Part shown: one piece after another, positions 3,448 to 50,469 of the stretch
How positions within the stretch are numbered: position 1 is the first letter of the stretch
Layout: every line of letters starts with the position of its first letter
Source of the DNA: Prorocentrum cordatum
Lineage: Eukaryota; Sar; Dinophyceae; Prorocentrales; Prorocentraceae
Direction: 5' to 3'
Length of the DNA: 64,000 bases
Assembly: GCA_963575745.1 (NCBI GenBank)
Contig: CAUYUJ010017658.1
Coordinates: forward strand, 5,001 to 69,000
Made by a program: the position numbers and the translations under genes
The notes under the pieces: model-generated
Told to the model about the DNA's origin: nothing
What the model saw: only the letters and a program-made list of their open reading frames with translations
The model's database searches: none

Positions 3448-5520
3448 TCAGGTGAACATCGCCATCGCCTCGGACACCGCCTTGTCCTTCTTTGATGAGG
3501 CCCCCTTTTTCGCTTTCGCTGCCTTCTGGAGATGGGCCGACTGGCTGTCGTTCGCCTCTTTGATTATGGCCAAGAAGTTCGCTTTGTCAGAGTCTGGCAC
3601 AAGGAACATGTAGGTCTCGAGCTCCTCCACGTCGGCCTTCGTCACGGGGCCCTGGGCCTTCTTCTCGGTCACCCGCTGCAGCTTGGCCTTCATTGCGGCG
3701 AGGCCGGTCAGCACCCTCCCCTTGGAGCCCTGGCCAGACGACTCGGTGAACCGGACAAAATAATCGAACTTGTCGACGAGCCCCTTGACCTTCGGCTCGG
3801 CCTCCAGAGATCCGAGCTCAGGACACTTCGCATCGACAAGGGAGCACAGCACCTTCTTGACTGCATCATGCATAACCTGGGCGGCCTTGGAGGCGAGCTT
3901 GTAAATGTTATCATTCACCATGGCGGCGATCTCGTGCAAGACGGTCTCGACATTCTTCTGCCCGCCCGCCGTGGGGAAGAGCTTCTCCATGGCCACGACC
4001 AGGCGCACGTACCCATTGTCACCGCCCACGGACATGATCAACAGCGCGTCCGCGTCGAAGTCAGGGTCCGAGACCACGAAGCTGGCCTTGATCTTCTTCA
4101 TCGTGTTCCGCGTCTGCTCCCCGGTCAGGTCACCAGACTCGCGGAAGGCTTTGTTGGCTCCCTTCCGCGCGGCATTCGGGCCCCCATACAGACACTCGCT
4201 GACCCTGACATCCGAAATCGGCCGAGGGTTCGGGAGCACCGCGTCGTAACAGAATAGCTTCTCCAAGAGATTCGCGTTCGTGGCGATCGGCCTCCACGCG
4301 AATGACAACTGCAAACTCACGTGGTGAGCCAGCGACTCCACGTCGAAGGTGAACTTGGTGCCCGCGACCGTGAACTCCACGGCCCGACTCGCGGGCAAGA
4401 GCTCGTTATTCTCGATGTCGGCCACCTTCGCGATGATGTCGGTCTTCTGCTGCTGGAGGCTCTCCTGAGATGGGGCCGGGCAAGCGCGGCCCCCGTGCGG
4501 GGGCACCAGCACCCCGGGCAACCCATGCCCGAAACGGGCGATTGCGATGGACCCCCGCCAACACCCCCTCCAACAAGGGGGGCATTCTTTCTCATATAGC
4601 TCAGAACAACCACCCCACCCCACCCCGATGGATGCACAGGGTCCTGCGTCAAAGGACCTGCCTTGCCCCACTTGACCGCCTCCTCTTCGATGATTCCGTC
4701 GACCTTCTTACCAAGGACTGTCAGCAAAGCGAACGGCCACATCGCCATGCCCGCGTCGCCACTGCCGATCACAGTGTTCAGCTCCGACAAGACGGTGCCG
4801 TAGTCCCCGTTGCAACCCAACACCTTCTTCAACGGCTCCTCTGGCATCGCCGACACCACGAGAGACAAATTGTCCTTGCAGAACTGGGCAGCCGTGGGCT
4901 TCGCTTTCACCTTAGCCGACGTCGCCCGCTTCCACGCCGAATTCACCGTGGTGTCGCAGAAGGGTTTGAAGAACGCCTCGTAGTAATCGGCGTAGGAGGT
5001 CGCCAGGCCAGCTCTGTGGACGAATCGCGCGAAAGCCTGGGCGAGCGCGGCCTGCTTCGGACAGCTGGGGCTGATTGTTTGCATCCATTTCGTCAACCCG
5101 ATCACCTCGGTCCTGTTTCTCGGCGTCTTCGACCCGATCCACGTGACCACCAAGGAGTGGTCGGGCTTCTTTTTCTTCGTGGGGACCATCGCCCGCAGGA
5201 GCGCGGGGTCCACCTGCTCAGGCGGATCAGGAGCTGTGAGAAGCTCCGGGCGCGACACGTGCTTCGGATGCCGCTGCCGCACATTGCGGTAGAAAACGGA
5301 ACCCAAGGCGAACGAGGGATTCTTCCGCTTCTCCCGCACGCCCTCCAGCACATCCTCATCGGCCGTCTTACCGCTAGTACCCTTCACGAGGTAGATCTGG
5401 TTCTCTGAGTACCCTTTTCAGGTTATCCTTACAAGCTTTCGTAGCAACCTCTGTAGACGGCTGAGCCTTTAACTTCCTCCTGAGTGCCCGGTCCTGCGCG
5501 CTGCCTTGGCCACCCGACAT
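3448..5520 (-). CDS. Unrecognised protein, about 624 aa, two exons, one-base frameshift
   Basis: The reading frame starts at the ATG at 5520 (MSGGQGSAQDRALRRK) and ends at 3448 after EAMAMFT. I do not recognise the family. Exon 1 runs 5520-4662 and exon 2 runs 4464-3448. The intron 4465-4661 is GC-AG and joins exon 1 in phase 0 to a Gln-rich segment ESLQQQK. Exon 1 is broken once: at the AAAA run (plus-strand TTTT at 5415-5418) one A too many shifts the frame. Dropping one A reconnects the upstream KACKDNLK frame to the SENQIYLVKGTSGK frame, and exon 1 is then exactly 286 codons. The product is Lys-rich, has no visible signal peptide or membrane segment, and has charged, soluble, helix-prone stretches plus a Lys/Ala/Ser-rich C-terminus. 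The shift may be a sequencing error or a real lesion. A protein-coding gene is likely because frame, codon pattern and intron agree; function is unknown. Confidence 0.7.
4465..4661 (-). other. GC-AG intron of the 624-aa gene
   Basis: On the minus strand the exon ends GGCAAG, the intron begins GCAGGT and ends CATCTCAG, and the next exon begins GAGAGC. Length is 197 bp. Splicing joins two open frames in phase 0, and the sequence between has different, Gly/Pro-rich composition. GC donors are well known in dinoflagellates. Confidence 0.7.
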
Positions 5521-5737
5521 GAAGGCACTGCGCGCGCCCGCTCGAACTGACCAGCACGGGCAACAGATGGGCAGACGATCGCCGGTGAAGGATAGCTGCG
5601 GCCTGAACCAGAATGGCCACGGGCAGGAGGTGAGACCTTGTAAGGAGAAGGCAATGTGGAAGGGAACATAATTATTATATTTACGATTTCCAGATGGCGC
5701 AAATGCTTCGGTCACGACGTGGATGCGTTGGGCCCAT

Positions 5738-6060
5738 GAGGGCCCAAGATGGTTTTGAGAGGGTCCCGAGGAGGCCCCAAGAGGGCCCACGAGGGCCCAA
5801 ATGGAGCTCAAAGACGGCTCCAAGAGGGCCCCAAGAGGGCCCACAGGCAACATACACCAATGTTGTCTTTGAATCCCGCTTTGGGGGCAAAGTTGGGGCT
5901 CTCCTGGGGCCCTCTTGGAGCCCTCTTGGGTCTCTCTTGGAGCCCCCTGGGGTCATCTTGAACCCCTCTTGGGGCGCCCTGAAAGCTCTGCCAGGGCCCC
6001 CAAACGGCCTTGGAGGACCCCAAGAGGGCCGAAAGATGGCTCCCAGAGGGCCCATAACTT
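5738..6060. repeat. CCAAGAGGGCCC-type array, inverted halves
   Basis: The left half reads CCAAGAGGGCCC and the right half GGGCCCTCTTGG. Near the switch there is a small hairpin, CAACAT ... ATGTTG (5848-5865). A second switch lies near 5970-6000. Confidence 0.75.
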
Positions 6061-6350
6061 AAGAGACATGTGACGGAGCACAGTCTCCAACAAGGAAGCG
6101 GTTCACCCTAAATTGCCGTTGAATTTGGGGCCCTCCTGGAGCCATATTGGGCCTCCCCTGGAGCCTTCCCGGCATTGTGTGGCGTCTCGGCCGCCATGCG
6201 CGCACTCCGTCTTCATTTGAACTAGGCTGCGTCGTTTTGATGCTTACGCAGAAGCCCAGATGATTCTCGTTCAGGCCCTGTGTGGCTTGCTGCGGACAAG
6301 CACAACGCAATGCTTTACAACTCAACGCCAGTCAAATCCGCGACCCGATT
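6061..6350. other. No recognisable gene
   Basis: Unique-looking sequence with short broken frames only. I see no motif that supports a gene. Confidence 0.4.
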
Positions 6351-6354
6351 CTGC

Positions 6355-6506
6355 TGTGAATTCCTTGTGAAAACTTTGTGAATTTTCTATGAATTTTTTC
6401 GCCCGTCTTTTGCGCCAATGTATCGCGCGCGGGCGGTGCGTTTTTTCCACTGAGAATTCACCAAGAATTCACTCCGCACTGCGCCGTCAGAATTCACCGA
6501 AGAATC
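6355..6506. repeat. GAATTCAC-type short repeats
   Basis: Repeated GAATTC/GTGAATT and AAGAATTCAC words in a less GC-rich patch, directly left of a CACCAGCCC element end. Confidence 0.5.
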
Positions 6507-6749
6507 CACCAGCCCTGTGGGCGTGAGTGGTCTAGAGCGCTTCCTCTTCCAGCCTCCTCATCAAACACGTCTCCATACCCTGTGCCCTAGGGTTTCCCCC
6601 CCCCCTCTCCACACACCCCTCCACCCTCTCTCCACCCCCCCCTCCACCCTCCACCACCCCCTCGACCACCCCCTCCTCCCCCCTCCACCCCCCCTTCACC
6701 TCCCCCTCCACCCCCTCGGATGTCCATTGGAAGCTTTTTGGGAGCCCGG

Positions 6750-7072
6750 GTTGGGTTTGGGCCCTCTTGGAACCCTCTTGGGGACCTCTTGGAGCCCTCC
6801 TGGAGCCCTCTTGGTTCCCCCTGAGGGCCCCAAGAAAGCTCCAAGAGGGCCCCAAGAGGGCCCAGGAGTTATGTACCAACCGAGGGCCCGCTGGTACATA
6901 ACTCCTGGGTCCCTCTTGGGGCCCTCTTGGGGCCTCCCAGGGCCCTCTTGGAGCCCTCGGTGGGCCCTCTTGGAGCTCCCAGAGGGCCCCAAGAGAGCTC
7001 CAAGAGGGCCCCAAGACGGCTCCAGGCGGCTCCAGAGGGACCCAAGACGGCTCCAGAGAACCCCAAGACGGT
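6750..7072. repeat. Long inverted CCAAGAG array
   Basis: Two arms of the degenerate CCAAGAGGGCCC unit face each other around the perfect hairpin at 6864-6906. Confidence 0.8.
6864..6906. repeat. Perfect 15-bp hairpin at the array centre
   Basis: Arms AGGAGTTATGTACCA and TGGTACATAACTCCT pair perfectly around a 13-nt loop. It is the clearest example of a unique palindrome at the point where the surrounding array reverses orientation. Confidence 0.9.
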
Positions 7073-7299
7073 TCATCTGTCTCCTACCCCTCCTGATCTT
7101 ACTCCTGATCCTATGCATCATCCTTCTACCCACTCCCTCATCCATCCATCCAGCCTCATTCTCCTCCTCCCTCCCTCGCACGGTTCGGCGATCCCCTGTT
7201 TTGCTCCACACTTCCCTGATCACCTCAACTCGCCTGGGCGTCGTTCCTGGATGGGCTGGTGGGGATGCGCGAAGCGTCAAAAATTCACCAGCGGGCTTG

Positions 7300-8470
7300 C
7301 CGGTGAGACAGAATGGGCCTGGCAACCGCGACGCTGCAGCTGAAGGTAGACACCGCCTCCAAGGGGGTGAATCGTCGCATCTCCCCCTCCTTTCTTCCCA
7401 CTCTTTGAAGGCCTGGCCCCCGACCTCGGGAACCATACCTTGAGCTTCACGTACCGCGCTTTCTTGGGGCACCGTCAGGGTCCGTGGTCCTCTTGGGGCC
7501 CTCTTGATGTCTCTTGGAGCCCTCGGAGGGGTTCGGGCGTAAGGTCTGGCCCCCAACCGTGAGAGTCAGCCGCAAAAGCAAAGGAACGGCAAAGCACGTG
7601 GGCGACACCCTCGGGCCTCTGCGAGACAGTGCTAACCTACTCATGCCTTCGCACCGTTCCCAACAGTTACACGGAGCACCGCATCGATAGCGGATGGGCC
7701 GGCACGCCCGAAAATGGAGCAGCAGTCAGCTTCATCCAAGCCGCATGTTTTGCATGCCTTGCAGCGTGGCACGCCGTAGTGGTGACCGGTTGTCGCGCTT
7801 CCCAACAATTACTCGGAACTGATTGTGGTCCACGGAGGAGCTCGGAGGAGCTCGGAGGTTCGGGCTCCTCCAAGACGGGTGGGTCGCGGGGCCGATAGGT
7901 TTCGGGCGGGTCGCGAAGCGGGTGGGTCGCTCGTGGGTCGCAGGCGCCGCGCTGGCCCACCAGCCCCCTCACTCTTATCCGCCATTGCGGGGTGCTACAT
8001 TATCTGAAGTCCCTCCGCTTGCGCGGAGGTTTCTCGTTCAGGGGGGAAATTCGTTACTTTTCCCCCCCTCTGCGACCAGCGGACGCGCCAACAAATCCGT
8101 GGCCCAGAAGGCGAAGCGCGGTCATCCTCGCGACGCGGGCCCCGAGGGCGAAACGCGGTCATCTTCGCACCGCGAGCCCTGACAGAGGTCTCCGGCCACC
8201 TAGCTGCGGCGGGGTTTCGGCCACGTTCGCAGGACAGGGCTCGGACCCACCGATGGCTAACAATACACTTGCACCCAGGCCTGCGGGGCCTGACATGTGA
8301 AAAAACTAACTTCGTCACTGTTTTTGGATGGGCAATTGGGGGTGCCCGAATCGTCCACAATTCAGAACGGAGGCGGGAGAGCACAAAGCATAGAGCAGGA
8401 GAAGATCTACGACGCATGATCGGACCATATCTGCGCGGGCACGCTCAGAGCGGCGCGCACACGATCCAGT
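7300..8470. other. Gene-free stretch with short repeats
   Basis: Contains a short CTTGGGGCCCTCTTG patch (7490-7530), GAGGAGCTCGG units (7836-7860), GGTGGGTCGCGG units (7876-7945) and a diverged right-end motif TTTTGGATGGGCAATTGGGG near 8322-8342. I see no supportable gene. Confidence 0.5.
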
Positions 8471-8473
8471 CCA

Positions 8474-11400
8474 TCAGCAAAACAAGCGATCAAGCTCTCT
8501 AACACGCTCTGCGCAGCCAGGCCTCCTACAGATGGCCTCCCGCGCTTCCAAATACACCGCCTGGGCACGATAACCTGCCACCTCCTCCGCGGTGAAACGC
8601 CGGAGGGGGTCACCGTGCCTGTGGGCGAGATTATAAAAATACTGCATGCGGTGGCACCACGCAGATGCCATGAAGAACGAGTTTCCCGCTTCAAATTTAT
8701 CCACGCCGTACCTGCCAGAGAACGGGGTACGTCGATCCCGGCACCACTGCACGACGTCCTGGCCAATCGCCGTTCCCGTGTGGCAACTCTGAGCGGAACC
8801 CTTCTTCGACACCTCGCCTTTGATATTACCACGCAAGACGACTCGGAAATCGTCAAAACGGCTGTCTTCAGTTTGATCGAGGGCTGCACGGGCGCCCTGG
8901 AGTTCCTTCCACATCGCTTCAGCGTCCGCCACGTCCATGTCGAGTTCCTCCAGGTCCGAATCGCCGCTAGAGGACGACGAAGACGCGAGCCTGAGCTTGG
9001 CGCTCCTGGTGCATCCCATGAGCTTCTCGCGAGAATCCCTGTCCTGGGACGCCGCGGGCCCCTTCGGCTTCCTGTGAGCCGACGCCCCTGCCCCGCTCCC
9101 CCGGCCCGCCGCGGCCGGGGCGTCCACGCTACATCGGGATATGAAAATGTCGAGCGGGACGGCGAACTTAGCCGCGCTCACGAAGACGCAATCTTCGGAG
9201 TACTCCAAGCCCGTGTACACGTCCACATCACTGGCACGAACATCGACAAAACGCTCGGCCTCAAAAGTACGGGTCCAGTCCACTTTGAAACGGTGGCGGC
9301 CCCATGCTCGGAAGGTCTGCTCTGCTTCGGGGCCATCCGGCAGAATCGGCATGGCAGTCTGCTCGTGGACGGCCTCGCAGAAAGATGCCACCACCGGCTG
9401 TTGCATCGCAAACATGAATACGCCAACCCCGATGTCACCGGCGCCGCCGCGGACGACGAAAGCCACGCCCTCGAAGCTCGAGCGCCGCGCGGCCACGTCC
9501 GCCGCCCATGCCGGCAGGGCCGCCCGTTCCTCCACCTCTTCCGCATCCCTCAAGGCGCCAGCCAGGACGTCGGACATCATCGGCGGCGCCTCGCAACGGA
9601 GACGTCGAGAAGATGCCACTGCCGAGCGACTGTAGCCAGCCGCGTCCCACTCGGCATCCAGCAGGGAGAAGTCCTCCTCCGTCAAATACGCCGACTGGAA
9701 GGAGAGAGGCGGCCGGTCAGAAACCCTGCTCAGCTTTGCCCGAGCCGCGGCAAGCTGGCCAACCAGCTCAGCTCGGATCTCCGCTTGCCCTTGTATTTTG
9801 ACGGAAGCCCTCACAGAAGCGATCCTCTTGAATATGCGCTTGAAGCGCCTTGGCTTCGAACGCCATTTCTTGCCGATCTTTTTGATGACTTCATTGCGTT
9901 TTCTGCTGCGGGCCACTTTGCTCTCGCCCACGCTCTTCTTAGCGAGGGTGGCCATGATGCCGCTTACGAACGCATGCTTCCCCGAAACATTTCCGGGCTG
10001 CTTCCGGTCGAGTCGGCCCAGCTTGGTCTCGAGTTTCTGCGCGTGCTTCTCCTCCACAGAGGGTTTCGGCGTCAGCTTGTGGAGGAACAAACACATTGTC
10101 CTGGACAGCAACGTCACCAATTCATATTCGGGGTGGAAGCGCGACAATGCGGCAATTGACCCATGCATCTGCTCTACAACAACCGTGGACCACGGGGCAT
10201 CCCCGAGGAGCTCGACCGTGCGCTGCAGAACAGGCAGCGGGACAGCACCGAGCTGCAACAAATCCCAAACCTTTCCAGCTGTTCGGTTGCTAGGCCTCGG
10301 GCCGGCCTTAAGGGCCGACAGGTTGGCTCCGACGTCACCGCGCACCAATGTCCAGGGCAAGCTTTCGGCCACGCTCAGCACGCGGAAATTGAAGAACGCC
10401 ACGGCCTTATGGGCAGCCCGCACACACGTCGACTGCAATGCGCGCCAACTGACCCCAGACAGAGCGCCGAGCTTTTTATACACAAAGGTTGGCAAGCTCC
10501 GTATCCACTCCATATTGTCAGCCAGTGCGCTTCTAAGTGCAGGGGCCGTTCGGGCAACCCTGTTGTCTTTCATTATCATGGCCAATACCGCATCCGGCAC
10601 TTGGGATACCAGAGCGGCCTCGGCGACGAACTCCCAGCAACCGTCCTGCTCCGACGCCAAAACTGGTTCAGAAAGAAGCCGGACACATGCGGCTGATCCA
10701 ACGCAAAAGCCAGCATGGCACTCAGGCCCAACAGTTGAGCAGCTGCCAGGCGCTGCGACGCACGGCCAAGCGACAACCAGCGTGAGTCTGTGTATTTCTT
10801 GAACTTCCAAACGCGCAGGAGCACGTTGGCTATCTTGTCTGCCACGATGCCATCGGACGCCGCGCTGCGGCCGACCCAAAGAACCCCATTTTCAAAACGC
10901 AGCTGGAGCCCTATGAGCACATCCACGGTGTCCTCCTCGAGGCACAGGCTTGACCAGAGAGCTCTCCACGACGTGGCCTCGCAGTCGCTCCAATCATCAG
11001 CCAGCCGGAACGCCTGGAACACCCATGCGTGCATATAGCGGGTGACGGCGTCAAAAGACTGGCGAATCGCAGCAACGGACAAATATACATTCTTTAAAAG
11101 GTCGGAATCATGAAAACGGTGAGGGAGCGACCATTTGAATGCATTCATGGCGTCGTGGCACGCGCATGCCGTCGCCTCTACCCACTCAGTGAGAGTCAAC
11201 AACTCCTGCTCTTCAACCGTGCTTCCGAACGAACTGCTAACCAAAGAGTGCCAAGCAGATAGCATTCTTGAGAAAGCCTCGAAACCGCACCGGTCAAAAC
11301 AATACGCTTGCACGCAAGGCCCTTTGTGCCCATGCTGCCGGCAGGTACGCCAGTAGCCCCTGCACGCCTCGAACATGCGAGGTACAGTCTTCCCCTCTGT

Positions 11401-44062: not shown

Positions 44063-44078
44063 GCGCAGAGCACAAGCG
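44063..44078. repeat. Target-site duplication of element 1, left copy
   Basis: GCGCAGAGCACAAGCG, identical to 50454-50469. The bases just outside differ on the two sides, so 16 bp is the full length. Confidence 0.9.
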
Positions 44079-44352: not shown

Positions 44353-47300
44353 CTAATCGGATGAACCCGAATCAGTCCCACCCCCGTCCCCCACCCCGTC
44401 CCTCCCCACAGCCGCCGTCTCCTCCGGTCGGAGGGCGGCAGCGACGCGAGAGGGCGCAGCTGGGCTGGATGGGGCGGCCTCTTGGCTGCCTGGACCCGCT
44501 GCAGCATCAGCCCCGAGGAGGATGGGCCGCCGCGTCCTGGGCACACGTCCTGCTGACAGGGCTTTAACCTGGGAGCGAACGCTAGCACGAGTGGCTTTAT
44601 TGACTGGCGGCCCAAGACAATCCTCACGGAGCTTTTTAATATACTTGTCAACCTGCAAACTATAGCGCCCACAGAGTTCACAGATTCCAGCGGGGCCCCA
44701 ACGAATGTGTTTATGTCCTCTACCGATTTTTGGGGCCCCAAGACAATGCGAGTTAAAAAGGGTCCTGTAGCTCACAGGGGTAGTGGCGATCCTGAGGCAC
44801 TTAGAACATCTCACTTGGGCACCGTCCTGGACAAACTCATGTTCGGTGAGGGAGAGCTTGGGGGCCTGATCTAACTTGTTTTTCTTAACCAGGGGCTCCC
44901 CAACCTCCTTGAACATCCTGACCGTGCGGGATGTCATGCACGCCGTGAACTGGGCGATCTTCTTGGACTGGACGATCATCTGCTTGTGATGTTCTGCCAG
45001 CGTGTCCGCGACCTTCACGCCCATAGCTCCAGCATGTGCAAAGAAGTCGGCCCATGCATTCCCATGGGCATGGGCGAGTGATCCACCTGCCTCGATAAAA
45101 TCCTGAATATCTTTGTGGGAAGGCACCCAGACAAATTCAGAGCGCCGCTGGTCATGTCGGCAGAGATGGAAGATCTTGCGCCAGACCTCGGCGTGCAGCG
45201 AGCCGCTAGCTTCGAGTTCTGGACTCCATTTGTTAGCTTCACGTACGAACGACAGGTGATCACTGACAAGTAAGCCTGGCCGTTCCATCATCATCAACGC
45301 TCGGTATCCCGCGTAGCGTTCTCCCCGAGGCACCGTTTGGTCGCGGCCAGGGAGGCCCCCGTACTGAGCTCGAACTGGGATCCCCGTCGACGGACATATC
45401 TGAACAATGGCCCATCCGACACGGCCCAGAGTAGGATGACTGATGTGCATTCCCGAAGCGTCGCAATAAGTGATAGAAGACCAGAGCCCATCAGCATCAC
45501 CCCATGGCAGTATCTCTGGGGTCTCATCTGGAAGACGGGGTTGCAAAGGCTCCGTCGGAAGTCCATATGTCAGATCAAAAGTATCGGGGTCATTCTTGTT
45601 CTCCTCCACAAGTTTCAACCTGACTTCGCGGAACTCAACTACGTCGTCGGGAATGACCTCGGGGCATGCATCTGAGAGCTGCAATGTAGCAGGGCAGACG
45701 TTCCACTGATGCGAGAGAGTACCTTTGGGAGCACCGCAATATGGGCATTCACGAGACGCCCCGACTCCAAGGTCCACTGACCTGTCGGGACACAAAAGAC
45801 CTCCAGCCCACAACTTCCTGAGTGCTCCCCTCATTGGTCCAGCTTTGACAGAAAACAACGCCAGTCTCATGGCCCGTCGCCAAATCTTCTCGTCGCCGAT
45901 CCGCTCTGGTAGATGGTGAAGGATACGTCCCACCTGGAGCCGATGAATAGATTCCACCAGACGCTTCTCCAGATCTCTGGGAGCAACATACAGTAGCGAA
46001 TATTGTTGTCCAAGGTCGTTCGTAAAAAGAGCGGGTCCGCTGAACTGCCATCCGATACGAATCAATGTAAACCATACTGTCGACATCGGTCCTCGTGCCA
46101 TGGCCCAAGTCGGCTTGGCATCTTGGAACTTGTCGGATACATACTGCCATGTGTGATGCAGCTCAGCTAAGGATACTCTGCTGTCCCATATAAAGCTATG
46201 GTATCTTTTGACAACAAGAATAGTACAATCAAAAACAAGGTCGAATCTGTCATCCCTTTGAGTAGCAAGGTAGAGCGTGAGTGATGCATTACGGGCAGCT
46301 CCAATCATACCGCCCGCGAAAGTGCGCAACTGCTTGAGCACAGTGTCCGACGTACCACTCACACCCGTGCCGTGCCCCACTGCAGGTAACAACCCAGTGC
46401 GCCACAACACCCCAAGCCGCTCGTGCACAGCACGCTCCAACGTGCGTATCTTTCCGACCCTCTCCTTAAGCTTAGCCATGCGTGCTTGCTCTTGGATACG
46501 ACGTGCTTTGACCCCGTGGAGCTCGTGACCTAAGTTGCGCATGTGGTGCTTGGGCTTGAGTTTCATGCACTTGACCCCCGACGAAAACCGATGTCGAGCA
46601 CGAACCGTGGTAGCAACGAATCCCGACTTAGAGTTCTGGAGGATGAGGCCTAACTCTCTCACGTCACCACCGAAGTTGCGTACGCACGTGTGCAGTATGT
46701 CTGCTCCTCTGGGGTCAAGGCCTTGCCACTGCATGGTAAAGTCGTCCATAAGCACGCGTGCTGTGATATCTGGATATCTATTGTACTGGTTAGAGACCAC
46801 CCGATGCAGAACAACCATAAGTATAGTGGTAGCATGTGTAAGCCAGCCAGAATGCCCTGACGGGCCACATACATCGAGCTAATATTACCATATGCACGTA
46901 TGGTCCGTGGAACACGATAAGTTTGTAGCACCATCCAGATCAATCTAAGAGGGAAATATAGTGCTCTAGCTTCTCGAATTATCATGCTCCATACTATGGT
47001 CTCATAGCACTTGAACATGTCCAGGAATACTGTAACGACATGCAACTTGCGTGCGTGTGCCGATTCGGCCTGTAAGTTTAAGTGGAACGCACAGTCCGAT
47101 GAAGAACGTCCAGCTCCCGTCCCCCAGAATGCAGGGTGTCTGTGAGCTTTTTCCCAGGCCGTGCTTAGATGTCGACGAGCACGGCCCCATATCCTCAACA
47201 TTGTGTTGAGGAGAGCAATGAGTCGTGTGCCTCCGCTCGGCTTCGGAAGCATACACAACTCCGTGAACAAAAGGTCCTGCGGCCAGATCAGCCGCTTCTC

Positions 47301-49079
47301 GCAGGCCATGAACATCTCGGCCATGGCTTGTAGCCCTTCATCGCATACAAACCAAAAATGCCGAGGCAGAATACGCATCTGCCCACGTCCTGTGCGACGG
47401 GCAAAAGACATGATGGTGGCCCGAATCTGGGCCCCCGTGAGCTCTGGCAGGTGCTCCCACTCATCTGCATCAGCAGGACGAGGAAGCTCGCCAGCGCCAT
47501 GTAGACTCCAAATCTGCTGCCACTTCTCTAGCTCGTGGTCCGCCAGCTGCGCTGGCGTAGAGTGGTCAGAGGCTTGCAACACTTGCTGCAGGGCACGAAG
47601 TCGGGTGAAACGGTGCGCATCACGCCCACCATTTTTGAAAGCATCCTCGGACCACTGCTGCCATTCCTCCTTGCGGCGCTGCGAATGCAAATCCTGCACC
47701 AGCTGCGCCTGAGCAATGATCTGCTCAAGCTTGCGATCTAATTCGAGGTCTTGAAACCATGCTGTCCACCCTGCCTGCAGAAAATCACGAGCCGAGTCAT
47801 CCATCATTCGGAGCACATCATGCGAACTATGCACTCGACGAGAGAAGTTGTCCAGGTCGTAGCAGAGAACGCCCAGCTTCTCGACGTGACTTTGCTTGAG
47901 CTTCTTGCGAGTCTGTCCTCGTCTTCCCTCGCGGAGTTGCTGCTCATTGAGTGTAGAGAACTGCTCCTTTCCAACCGAGGCAGAGACACCCACGTTGCAA
48001 ATGAGATGGATGGGCGTGCCCATGTACTCGGACATTCGACGGATGTGTCGGGCCCATCTTGCAGCAACTCGCCAGGCATAAACACATCCGTGTCCTGACT
48101 CCCGCCGATCTTCAGGAGTACCGTTGAACGCGGCGAGCTCCGCGGCAACGCTCGAGGGTGTCAGATATCGCAGGACATGCTCTCCGACAATGTCGTGCCT
48201 CCCTGCTAACTCGAGCTCGATCGTATTGACCACCTGCAACCACGCCGCGCCCAATTCCGTGTCAGACTTGATGAGGTCTATCTGCTCACGGACGACACTC
48301 CAGTTGCAAGGAAACCTTGAGCACCCTGCCTTGACCGTGGTGGGCATCTCCTTGGCCTCCTGGATTCTCCTGAGCATCACTGGGCACTCCTGTGTTGTGA
48401 CGGGCATCGTCACAGGCAGGCGAGGCTTGGCATCTGCATCCTCGACTACAGCTGGCCTGCGAATGCGCGGTAGCATCGCCGCACCCACCAAAAAATAGTC
48501 GATCACGGTACCTGGGAGGGTCTGCCTGCACGTAGTTGCCCGAGACGCTGCGACTAAGCCTCCAATGCTGTGGAGCCAATCCGTCCCGACGTCCTCAGGG
48601 CTGTTGTTGAAGTCGCCGCCACACAACCAGTTGGTGTGGCCCAACGACCTCATGAGCATCACATGCTCCGCTAACTGCTTGAGCAGAGCAACGTTGTGGA
48701 CAGACATGCCTTCGCCGACGTATAAGTAGATAGTGTAGACGATGAGTCCCCCAGATGGCCCCCATGACAACTTTGTGGCCATGAGCCTCGACGGGACGAT
48801 CACTCCGTCCTCGGTCTTGGGGGCAGCTGTGACGACCACATGTTTCCGAGTAAGAACTGCAAACCCTGCTGAACGTCCGCCCGCATCCGTGGTCTTGGCG
48901 GCGGACCAGATCCCATGCCAGCCTCGCTGCAAAGCCTTGGCCTGGGCATCAGGTAATTTATCTGGAAGAATGTGATGTTCCTGCACCGTCATCACCTGAG
49001 CCTTAGACCATTCCAGGTAGTCTAGAAGCTGAGGCTGTGACGAGCAGTTGAAGGTCTCGATCGTATGAGCTTCCGTCAT
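44353..49079 (-). CDS. Element 1 ORF2: AP endonuclease, reverse transcriptase, RNase H (about 1575 aa, one frameshift)
   Basis: Enzyme of target-primed reverse transcription. It starts at ATG 49079, 46 bp after ORF1. Residues 1-230 are an AP endonuclease: TVQEHH (E34), GGDFNNS (D156, N158) and TVIDYFLVG (D194); the usual final Ser-Asp-His is not seen in the expected place (ADAKPRLPVTMPV). RT follows: LPKPSGGTRLIAL at about residue 640, box A FLDMFKCYE at about 685, QGILAG at about 735, then the catalytic VLMDDFTMQW at about 778. A CCHC finger (CPYC-x8-H-x4-C) lies near 1115. RNase H covers about 1190-1350 (TYCDAS, RGERYAGY, LLVSDHLS, GNAWADFF), followed by two more Cys pairs (CSKC, CELC). The frame shifts near 46842, between QGILAG and LTHATTILMVV; one extra C restores it. 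In the 5' direction this frame stays open through all of ORF1. Confidence 0.88.
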
Positions 49080-49125
49080 GGTGACCGTAGTATTAAGCAA
49101 CAACCAAGCCACACAGCAGAGATGT

Positions 49126-50271
49126 CTAGGCCGTAACCTTCTGCTTCTTCGTGAACTGAGTGAACTGCTCAGCTGCCCGCTTGGCTGCTGCGCGAATTTC
49201 CTCTTCATCCTCGGGGACTGGTACTCCCATGGACTGGAGCAGGTTCTTGAGATCCTCAGGGTCCTCCTGGCCAGCGAATGCAAAGCCTCCTGCAGCAGGG
49301 GGCTGACCACCATCATCCCCAGGAGGAGACTGCTGAGGAGGAGCAGCTGAACCGTTGGCCTCTGGCGGGACCTCGGGCGGCTGGCTGAGCTTCTTCTCGG
49401 CCAGCTTGAGCATGTCCATGCATTCACGGAGCTTGCCCCCCAAGATGTCAGCGCCGGTTTGCTCAAGGCCTCTCGCCTTAAGCATGGTCCCAAGCGCCTC
49501 GACGGAGGTTCCCATGGACTCAATGGTGGCGCTGAGATCCTTCTGCTTGGGCGACAGCGGCTGCTCCTTGAGCACCTGCTTGATCTCCTCTTCCTTCGCA
49601 GTGATCTGTTCCAGGGTGAGCTGCAACGCTTGGTCGGCGTCGGCCAGCGCCTTGGCCGCCTCCTCGAGACGACTCTGAGCCTGAGCACGCACCCCTTCGA
49701 GACGAATACGTTTCTCCTCAAGCTGCTTCTTCTGATTGACCACATCATGCGCCCTCCATTCGAAGGGCTGGGCAGCACGCAACTTGGACTTGCACGCGTC
49801 GCGGTGCCTCTCCAAATGAAACTTCTGCTCCCTGCCGAACTCAGTGCTGGGCTCCTTGGGCAGCGCCTTGAGCATGGACTCTGCCTGGGCCAGCTCCTCT
49901 TTCCACTTGGCGTTCTCGTTCGCGAGCCGATCTCCCCCATCAACTTGCATGGCATTACCATCTGCTGCATCAGGGGCCGCTGGGGCCTGCTGCTTGGCTG
50001 CCAGCTGTCGTTGAAGGTCGGCCAGCTTCTTCTCGAGCATTCTCTCACGGTGCGAAGGGCTTGGCGGCTTCTTGGCACTGGTGCTCGGCGCCTCCGACAG
50101 CTGACGGACCGAATGGAAGGCCATGTCTTTGCTGCAGCCGCACTGGGTACAAGCCGAAGCTGTGGCCGCATTCCACCAGCGAGCGCCCGCCTTGCTAGTG
50201 CACCATTTGCAGTTCCACTGCGATGCCCATGCCATCCTTCGCACAGCCCCACGAGAAGCAGGAGGAGCCAT
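49126..50271 (-). CDS. Element 1 ORF1: RanBP2-type zinc finger and coiled coil (381 aa)
   Basis: ORF1 proteins of non-LTR elements bind the element RNA and form the RNP. The first ATG after the leader is at 50271 (MAPPASRGAVRRM); the frame is open further 5' but only non-ATG starts lie there. Near residues 15-45 the spacing W-x-C-x2-C-x9-N-x6-C-x2-C (WNCKWC ... NAATASACTQC) matches a RanBP2-type zinc finger except for a longer first loop. This is unusual, as CCHC knuckles or RRMs are more common. Residues about 75-330 are charged, Lys/Glu/Gln-rich and heptad-like (MLEKKLADLQRQLAAKQQ, NQKKQLEEKRIRLEG), consistent with coiled coils, then a Pro/Gly linker and a final basic KKQKVTA. It is intact. 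The stop at 49126 is 46 bp before the ORF2 ATG, in another frame. Confidence 0.85.
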   Translation of the reverse strand: MAPPASRGAVRRMAWASQWNCKWCTSKAGARWWNAATASACTQCGCSKDMAFHSVRQLSEAPSTSAKKPPSPSHRERMLEKKLADLQRQLAAKQQAPAAPDAADGNAMQVDGGDRLANENAKWKEELAQAESMLKALPKEPSTEFGREQKFHLERHRDACKSKLRAAQPFEWRAHDVVNQKKQLEEKRIRLEGVRAQAQSRLEEAAKALADADQALQLTLEQITAKEEEIKQVLKEQPLSPKQKDLSATIESMGTSVEALGTMLKARGLEQTGADILGGKLRECMDMLKLAEKKLSQPPEVPPEANGSAAPPQQSPPGDDGGQPPAAGGFAFAGQEDPEDLKNLLQSMGVPVPEDEEEIRAAAKRAAEQFTQFTKKQKVTA

Positions 50272-50430
50272 GCTCGATCCCCGCGGGGAGTCGTGTTGCC
50301 AGAACGCGTGCTCACCAGCCTGGCGGCAACTGAGGTGAGCACAGTTCGTGAAAGCTGATTGGTTGCACGGGGGCCTTGAGCCGCCCCCTTGGCTGTGATT
50401 CAAGCTCCAACGCCGGGGGCCACGTTGGAA

Positions 50431-50452
50431 CTTGAGCCAAAATGGCTACGGA
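50431..50452 (-). other. Dinoflagellate spliced leader at the 5' end of element 1
   Basis: The minus strand reads TCCGTAGCC, then ATTTTGGCTCAAG, all 22 positions of the dinoflagellate SL consensus (first base T of the permitted A/G/T). It is separated from the target-site duplication by one G. There is no donor GT after the SL, so it is captured exon sequence and not an SL RNA gene. Confidence 0.95.
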
Positions 50453-50453
50453 C

Positions 50454-50469
50454 GCGCAGAGCACAAGCG
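50454..50469. repeat. Target-site duplication of element 1, right copy
   Basis: GCGCAGAGCACAAGCG, identical to 44063-44078, one base beyond the spliced leader. Confidence 0.9.

Follow-up and report, generated by a model that had tools for sequence, protein, structure and literature searches.

Full-length LINEs of at least two unrelated groups in the genome of Prorocentrum cordatum start exactly at the spliced leader (SL) of their host, which indicates that they were copied from messages that the host had processed. One of these LINEs, which we call element 1, lies in a stretch of 64,000 nucleotides (the window; C16809:5001-69000, 60.2% GC). Judging from sequence comparisons across the genome searched (4,128,499,153 bases in 21,875 contigs), element 1 is very probably a copy of a LINE family that uses its own SL-trans-spliced mRNA as the template for retrotransposition, and the same would hold for unrelated groups.

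Anatomy of the SL-headed elements in the window

Element 1 occupies positions 50452-44079 on the minus strand. The original prediction held that identical 16-bp target-site duplications (TSDs) bound it, and that a full, unmutated dinoflagellate SL (DinoSL) lies one base inside the 5' duplication. Both statements agree with what we found. The 5' TSD, CGCTTGTGCTCTGCGC (50454-50469, minus strand), and the 3' TSD (44063-44078, minus strand) are identical over 16 nt, and this 16-mer occurs exactly twice within the window. Read from the sequence, one extra base, a G at 50453, separates the 5' TSD from a complete 22-nt DinoSL (50452-50431), T followed by CCGTAGCCATTTTGGCTCAAG, which forms the terminal sequence of the element. 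Shuffling the sequence 100 times gave 0.00 matches to the SL 21-mer with up to three mismatches.

The remainder of element 1 is organized as follows on the same strand. A 5' untranslated region (UTR) of 159 nt (50430-50272), the first 44 nt of which were aligned with 19 other copies, leads to ORF1 (50271-49126), a frame of 381 amino acids that matches no Pfam family. The 5' part of ORF2 (49079-46659) encodes, according to Pfam, an endonuclease (EN; PF03372) and the start of a reverse transcriptase (RT; PF00078). Its 3' part lies in a different frame (46878-44353) and holds RT sequence with a DD motif recognized by eye, as well as a region with homology to the RNase H segment of another SL-headed locus, L027. 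The 3' UTR and 3' end (44352-44079) finish in ..GACTTGGACACAC, without poly(A). The change of frame falls inside the RT, where the open frames 46659-50399 and 44353-46878 overlap. Element 1 had been described as nearly intact, and ORF1, EN and RT are indeed present; however, given the break within the RT, this copy is nearly, yet not fully, intact. Four other elements assigned to the same RT group (group 1; L015, L018, L021 and L026) also change frame within or just after the RT, at differing places, whereas ORF2 of L027 is open throughout the part available. These frame changes may reflect decay or a programmed shift.

Several features place element 1 among the LINEs. The AP-type endonuclease domain PF03372 scores above its cut-off in element 1 and in three loci described below (L014, L017 and L019). 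PF00078 is matched in element 1 with an E value of 1.4e-5 and 25.3 bits, below the curated cut-off of 29.6, and in L014 with an E value of 1.2e-15 and 58.2 bits. The RNase H domain PF00075 is found in L027 (E 9.5e-8); the homologous region of element 1 was recovered with an iterated profile, and Pfam gave no RNase H match in element 1 itself. When the two terminal 1.5-kb stretches were compared for element 1, for a second element in the window (element 2) and for L014, neither long terminal repeats (LTRs) nor terminal inverted repeats were found. A poly(A) or simple-repeat tail was not found in element 1, the longest run of A in its last 60 nt being 2; such tails are not universal among LINEs. 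We tentatively compare this architecture with that of I/ingi-like APE-type LINEs with RNase H. No relatives of ORF2 were found among the phages and viral contigs searched, and a search of the PDB returned nothing useful, with EN matches at E 0.02 or worse.

Just past the 3' end of element 1, positions 43481-40771 (minus strand) hold the degraded RT, and the domain that follows it, of an older LINE in which element 1 may be nested.

Element 2 is a decayed LINE (56780-51586, minus strand) with group-2 RT at 54167-53262 and 53515-53039. Its head (56817-56781) consists of an SL with two mismatches followed by a 15-nt relic SL with one, and it is flanked by a 5' TSD (56832-56818) that matches the 3' copy (51585-51571) at 14 of 15 nt. 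Among 169 upstream 15-mers, a single one finds a match this close within the following 10 kb. Element 2 (56817-51586) is thus also SL-headed, and the window holds two SL-headed LINEs. Four further SL-like sites, with 4-5 mismatches, lie on the minus strand at 5622-5602, 11771-11751, 26269-26249 and 51025-51005, and are probably the heads of older insertions. Together with the three sites in the heads of elements 1 and 2, the window has seven sites within five mismatches of the SL, all of them in minus orientation; the average over 40 Markov simulations was 0.1.

The spliced leader in other copies and in an unrelated family

Copies of element 1 were sought by body first, with the 300 nt that follow the SL as the query and the SL itself excluded. 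At least 41 matches were found, the window's own included (40 candidates scored), and we read the 5' ends at 21 loci, which account for 22 of the 40 matches outside the window. Tabulating these 5' junctions, a check that had been set beforehand, showed the exact 21-nt SL at the identical junction in 19 of the 21. The DNA upstream of the SL differs among these 19 copies, with nothing conserved there. Fifteen copies have a T immediately before CCG, two a G and two a C. Sixteen of the 19 have one clean SL and three have an SL followed by a 15-nt relic. The two loci without SL are L044 (C3193), which is altered up to base 18 of the body, and L066 (C21674), a 5'-truncated copy, the one such copy examined, which starts 133 nt into the body.

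Elements of the SLACS/CRE kind, which insert in SL RNA genes, exist in trypanosomes. If element 1 were site-specific in this way, its SL would be target DNA; we give this an almost negligible probability, since the DNA ahead of the SL is different at different sites, and the SL is not part of the TSD but enclosed by it.

The 3' end of element 1 is likewise shared, its last 300 bases having at least 41 matches in the genome. Fourteen loci were read at both ends, 12 with SL and two without. When the flank before the SL was compared with the flank after the 3' end, all 12 SL-headed copies had a TSD of variable length (13-18 nt; 16 nt in the window copy). As a control, 132 mismatched pairings of flanks shared 4.7 nt on average and 13 at most. 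This maximum, from the pair C13497/C14889, equals the lowest true value; both copies lie in CCT-rich tracts, so their two TSDs are less certain. At the SL-less loci C21674 and C3193 no TSD was found, the longest shared stretches being 7 and 5 nt. In the SL-headed copies the inserted sequence begins with the SL, stops at a fixed 3' end and is enclosed by a 13-18-bp TSD. Counting the window's, there are 13 full-length copies, every one with SL and TSD, in keeping with the earlier claim that the SL is the terminal sequence of autonomous-type non-LTR copies. That 44063-44078 is a real duplication is upheld too, since SL-headed copies at 12 other sites also lie inside TSDs.

The bases between TSD and SL are less regular. 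Among the 12 copies, five have no extra base, one has a G (C15725), two a C, one TT and one 12 nt, and two are unclear within tracts. A cap-templated G was considered as a rule and rejected, because the extra bases vary or are absent; for the same reason, they do not prove that reverse transcription ran up to the cap. The copy on C15725 has a composite 5' end (L036; G000:C15725:75836-76210), in which the TSD precedes an SL and 133 bases of 5' UTR; the TSD sequence then recurs, and a further SL heads the full element.

An SL could also be gained if the RT jumped from the 5' end of the LINE RNA to free SL RNA or to another mRNA, as in U6/LINE-1 chimeras, and LINE-1 chimeras formed by template switching, ligation and occasional trans-splicing are described in passages of PMC13174262. 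We consider this highly improbable here, as in all 19 SL-headed copies the body is joined at the same base after an AG and is preceded by nothing but the SL exon (or the SL and a relic), and as the SL at the 5' ends read is the norm and not occasional.

Within the element-1 family none of the 21 SL columns varies among the 19 copies, against 8 of 45 columns in the adjoining stretch of the alignment. Such invariance is only mildly improbable if the SL is simply inherited, and identity of the SL across families therefore weighs more. A second family, named for the locus L014, provides this comparison. Its query was again the 300 bases after the SL, with 40 matches scored of 292 first-look candidates, L014 itself included, and all 40 begin at base 1 after the SL. 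L014 and element 1 have no nucleotide match. We read 20 of the 38 5' ends outside L014 and a second member, L025: the SL is exact in 16, a one-base variant in three, and reduced to its last 15 nt in one. The three single mismatches are each private and fall at different positions. The copy with the last 15 nt alone (L073; CCATTTTGGCTCAAG) is preceded by DNA that is not SL, and what it retains equals the relic form. In this family the ATG directly follows the SL, which is the entire 5' UTR. The stop-to-stop frame of L014 extends over 1,869 amino acids, with EN and RT above their Pfam cut-offs.

These two families bear on whether element 1 might be a passive retrocopy of a single chance trans-spliced transcript, with no role for the SL in its life cycle. 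SL relics in retroposed host genes are established (PMC6050394, PMC3229502, PMC12014239, in the portions of these reports consulted). We nevertheless judge the passive retrocopy very unlikely, given that the SL heads 19 of 21 element-1 5' ends and, exactly or with one change, 19 of 20 in the L014 family, that these are many independent insertions, and that no longer form occurs among the copies read.

Loci chosen by the spliced leader, and their target tracts

The genome contains 14,218 exact SL 21-mers, and the reversed control has none. From the first 22 matches on contigs C1 and C2, a non-random sample, we took 20 loci of 10 kb at exact SLs; the two matches not made into separate loci are C1:639 and C1:893877, the latter inside L016. 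A LINE EN and/or RT lies downstream of the SL, on the same strand, in 15 of the 20, and separate RT profiles divide these LINEs into two groups. Since the profiles were iterated on the same 20 loci, independent support comes from tblastn, which found relatives of element-1 ORF2 in seven loci, all on the SL strand, and from Pfam, which supports L014, L016, L017, L018, L019, L023 and L027 (L018, L023 and part of L027 below cut-off; in L027 the RNase H is above it and the RT and EN below). Together with the unrelated L014 family, these 15 loci carry the claim of a terminal SL beyond the family for which it was made.

Long stop-to-stop frames are also present in L017 (1,584 amino acids), L019 (1,444) and L027 (at least 2,665). 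L031 is probably a sixteenth LINE: its frame of at least 2,055 amino acids contains a fragmentary RNase H match below cut-off (E 1e-3) and, recognized by eye, a YADD motif and a stretch resembling an endonuclease. Its order is unusual, with RNase H, endonuclease-like, RT-like and C2H2 finger segments following one another at 3836-10000 (plus strand; endonuclease and RT by eye). Four of the 20 loci (L013, L020, L024 and L028) gave no LINE signal by tblastn, profiles or Pfam, and L013 shares 65 bases with the 5' UTR of element 1. The sole antisense LINE signal is in L026, where it belongs to a distinct relic located upstream of the SL. A tandem of SL and 15-nt relic was seen by eye in L013, L017, L022, L024 and L030. 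Genomic DinoSL counts that serve as marks of retrogenes may largely count LINE heads, to the extent that 15 of 20 loci in a small, non-random sample can tell.

In 14 of the 20 loci, the 24 nt before the SL form a CCT or AGG tract (seven each). Such tracts make up 2.6% of positions in the window and 2.8% of 5,799 positions drawn at random from these 20 loci. In the L014 family a CCT tract (score 0.7 or more) occupies the 24 nt before the SL in 18 of 20 copies, and in both L014 and L025 it resumes right after the 3' end, which places the two elements inside the tract. Only 2 of 19 flanks in the element-1 family have a CCT or AGG tract before the SL, and we rejected CCT/AGG targeting as a general rule. 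As tracts are common in one family and rare in the other, the targeting of tracts is a property of individual families. By inserting into CCT tracts, the L014 family may gain a pyrimidine tract in front of the SL acceptor. Against such placement being general, other families lie beside AGG tracts and element 1 lies mostly outside tracts; a pyrimidine tract before the SL is thus not required in general.

A proposed cycle and its relation to known systems

We propose that a genomic copy of element 1 would be transcribed, probably as transcription reads through an array of genes in the same orientation. Of 52 pairs of neighbouring exact SLs, taken from 100 places listed and at least 10 kb apart, 37 point in the same direction (p 0.003). 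The host would splice its 22-nt SL onto an AG acceptor, as the constant junction between SL and body suggests. The mRNA would then be translated, and the element's EN and RT would copy the template by target-primed reverse transcription (TPRT), starting at the 3' UTR and continuing through the whole SL. The SL in the genome holds two AGs: splicing at the last (CTCAAG|) would restore one clean SL, and splicing at the first (CCGTAG|) would leave a 15-nt relic. The junction between SL and body is a fixed base after AG, and relics of an earlier round are present. Both the clean form and the form with relic are seen, and we infer a choice of acceptor between the two AGs. The tandem relics and the identity of the SL across families suggest that the host may supply a cap and leader in each cycle.

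Another explanation, which we regard as unlikely, is that the SL is inherited as DNA, with the genomic SL serving as initiator or promoter, its first base being where transcription starts, and with no trans-splicing. A start within the SL has been raised as an option for a host gene (PMC2488372), and retroposed SLs have been proposed to carry a TTT(G) promoter motif (PMC6050394), both in the passages available; the single clean SL of 16 of the 19 element-1 copies would fit as well. However, the copies with SL and relic in tandem (3 of 19 in the element-1 family, element 2 and several of the loci chosen by SL) are explained by splicing at the internal AG. In addition, no internal variant of the SL is shared among the copies read, the three mismatches in 20 L014-family copies being at different positions, and families whose bodies have no nucleotide match possess the identical host SL.

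Extending the trans-splicing cycle to the whole genome yields a broader reading, which we offer tentatively and with somewhat less than even confidence. LINEs of several groups would have dispensed with any 5' end specific to them, the genomic SL would act as a portable trans-splice acceptor through which each insertion is reprocessed, host retrogenes marked by an SL would arise in part through the LINE machinery, and LINE heads, not retrogene marks, would account for most of the approximately 14,000 exact SLs.

Element 1 resembles APE-type LINEs with RNase H in its EN, RT, RNase H-like region, TSDs and lack of LTRs; unlike them, it has the host SL in place of element sequence at its 5' end, and no poly(A) tail. 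The trypanosomatid L1Tc/ingi elements are similar to the LINEs described here in that they encode AP endonuclease, RT and RNase H and inhabit a host whose mRNAs are trans-spliced (PMC4748587, in part). L1Tc, though, is transcribed from an internal 5' promoter, Pr77, into unspliced transcripts (PMC4748587), whereas here the 5' terminus is the SL itself. In this dinoflagellate, RNA processing would provide the 5' end for a whole class of parasites, a solution opposite to that of trypanosome L1Tc. LINE-1/mRNA trans-splicing chimeras offer a parallel in that a foreign 5' exon is joined to LINE RNA before TPRT; excerpts from PMC13174262 report them for 17 mRNAs in mammals, while here most 5' ends read have the SL.

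Dinoflagellate retrogenes with DinoSL relics share with element 1 the SL and 15-nt relics in DNA, derived from reverse-transcribed trans-spliced mRNA (PMC6050394, PMC3229502, in part). In contrast to them, the message copied here encodes EN and RT, and its copies have defined ends and TSDs. The source of RT for those retrogenes is given as unknown in the relevant section of PMC6050394, which leans towards Ty1/copia (LTR elements); passages of PMC10235124 and PMC12014239 allow LINEs, among others, as mediators. LINEs whose full-length copies are copies of SL-mRNA are a candidate for the RT behind dinoflagellate mRNA recycling. The virus DinoRNAV, too, is a parasite with a 5' dinoSL, for which molecular mimicry has been speculated, and a dinoSL lies near 6 of 26 endogenised DinoRNAV RdRp ORFs, with LINEs among the suggested mediators (PMC10235124, in part). 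Those endogenous copies are fragments of an RNA virus and not a self-mobilising LINE. Among the matches listed from the open-licence PMC literature, the passages returned held no description of SL-headed LINEs.

The exact SL also occurs in one viral contig and two prokaryote-bin contigs. The viral contig (L001; IMGVR_UViG_3300045993_001077) is AT-rich and virus-like, with 22% GC and a glycosyltransferase 41 ORF, and carries two exact DinoSLs directly before an ORF of 254 amino acids with 49% GC (2913-2746 and 2700-1936, minus strand); this ORF is perhaps a dinoflagellate message captured by a virus. The other two contigs (L002 and L003), which were binned as Dehalococcoidia MAGs, have one exact DinoSL each and are perhaps misbinned dinoflagellate DNA.
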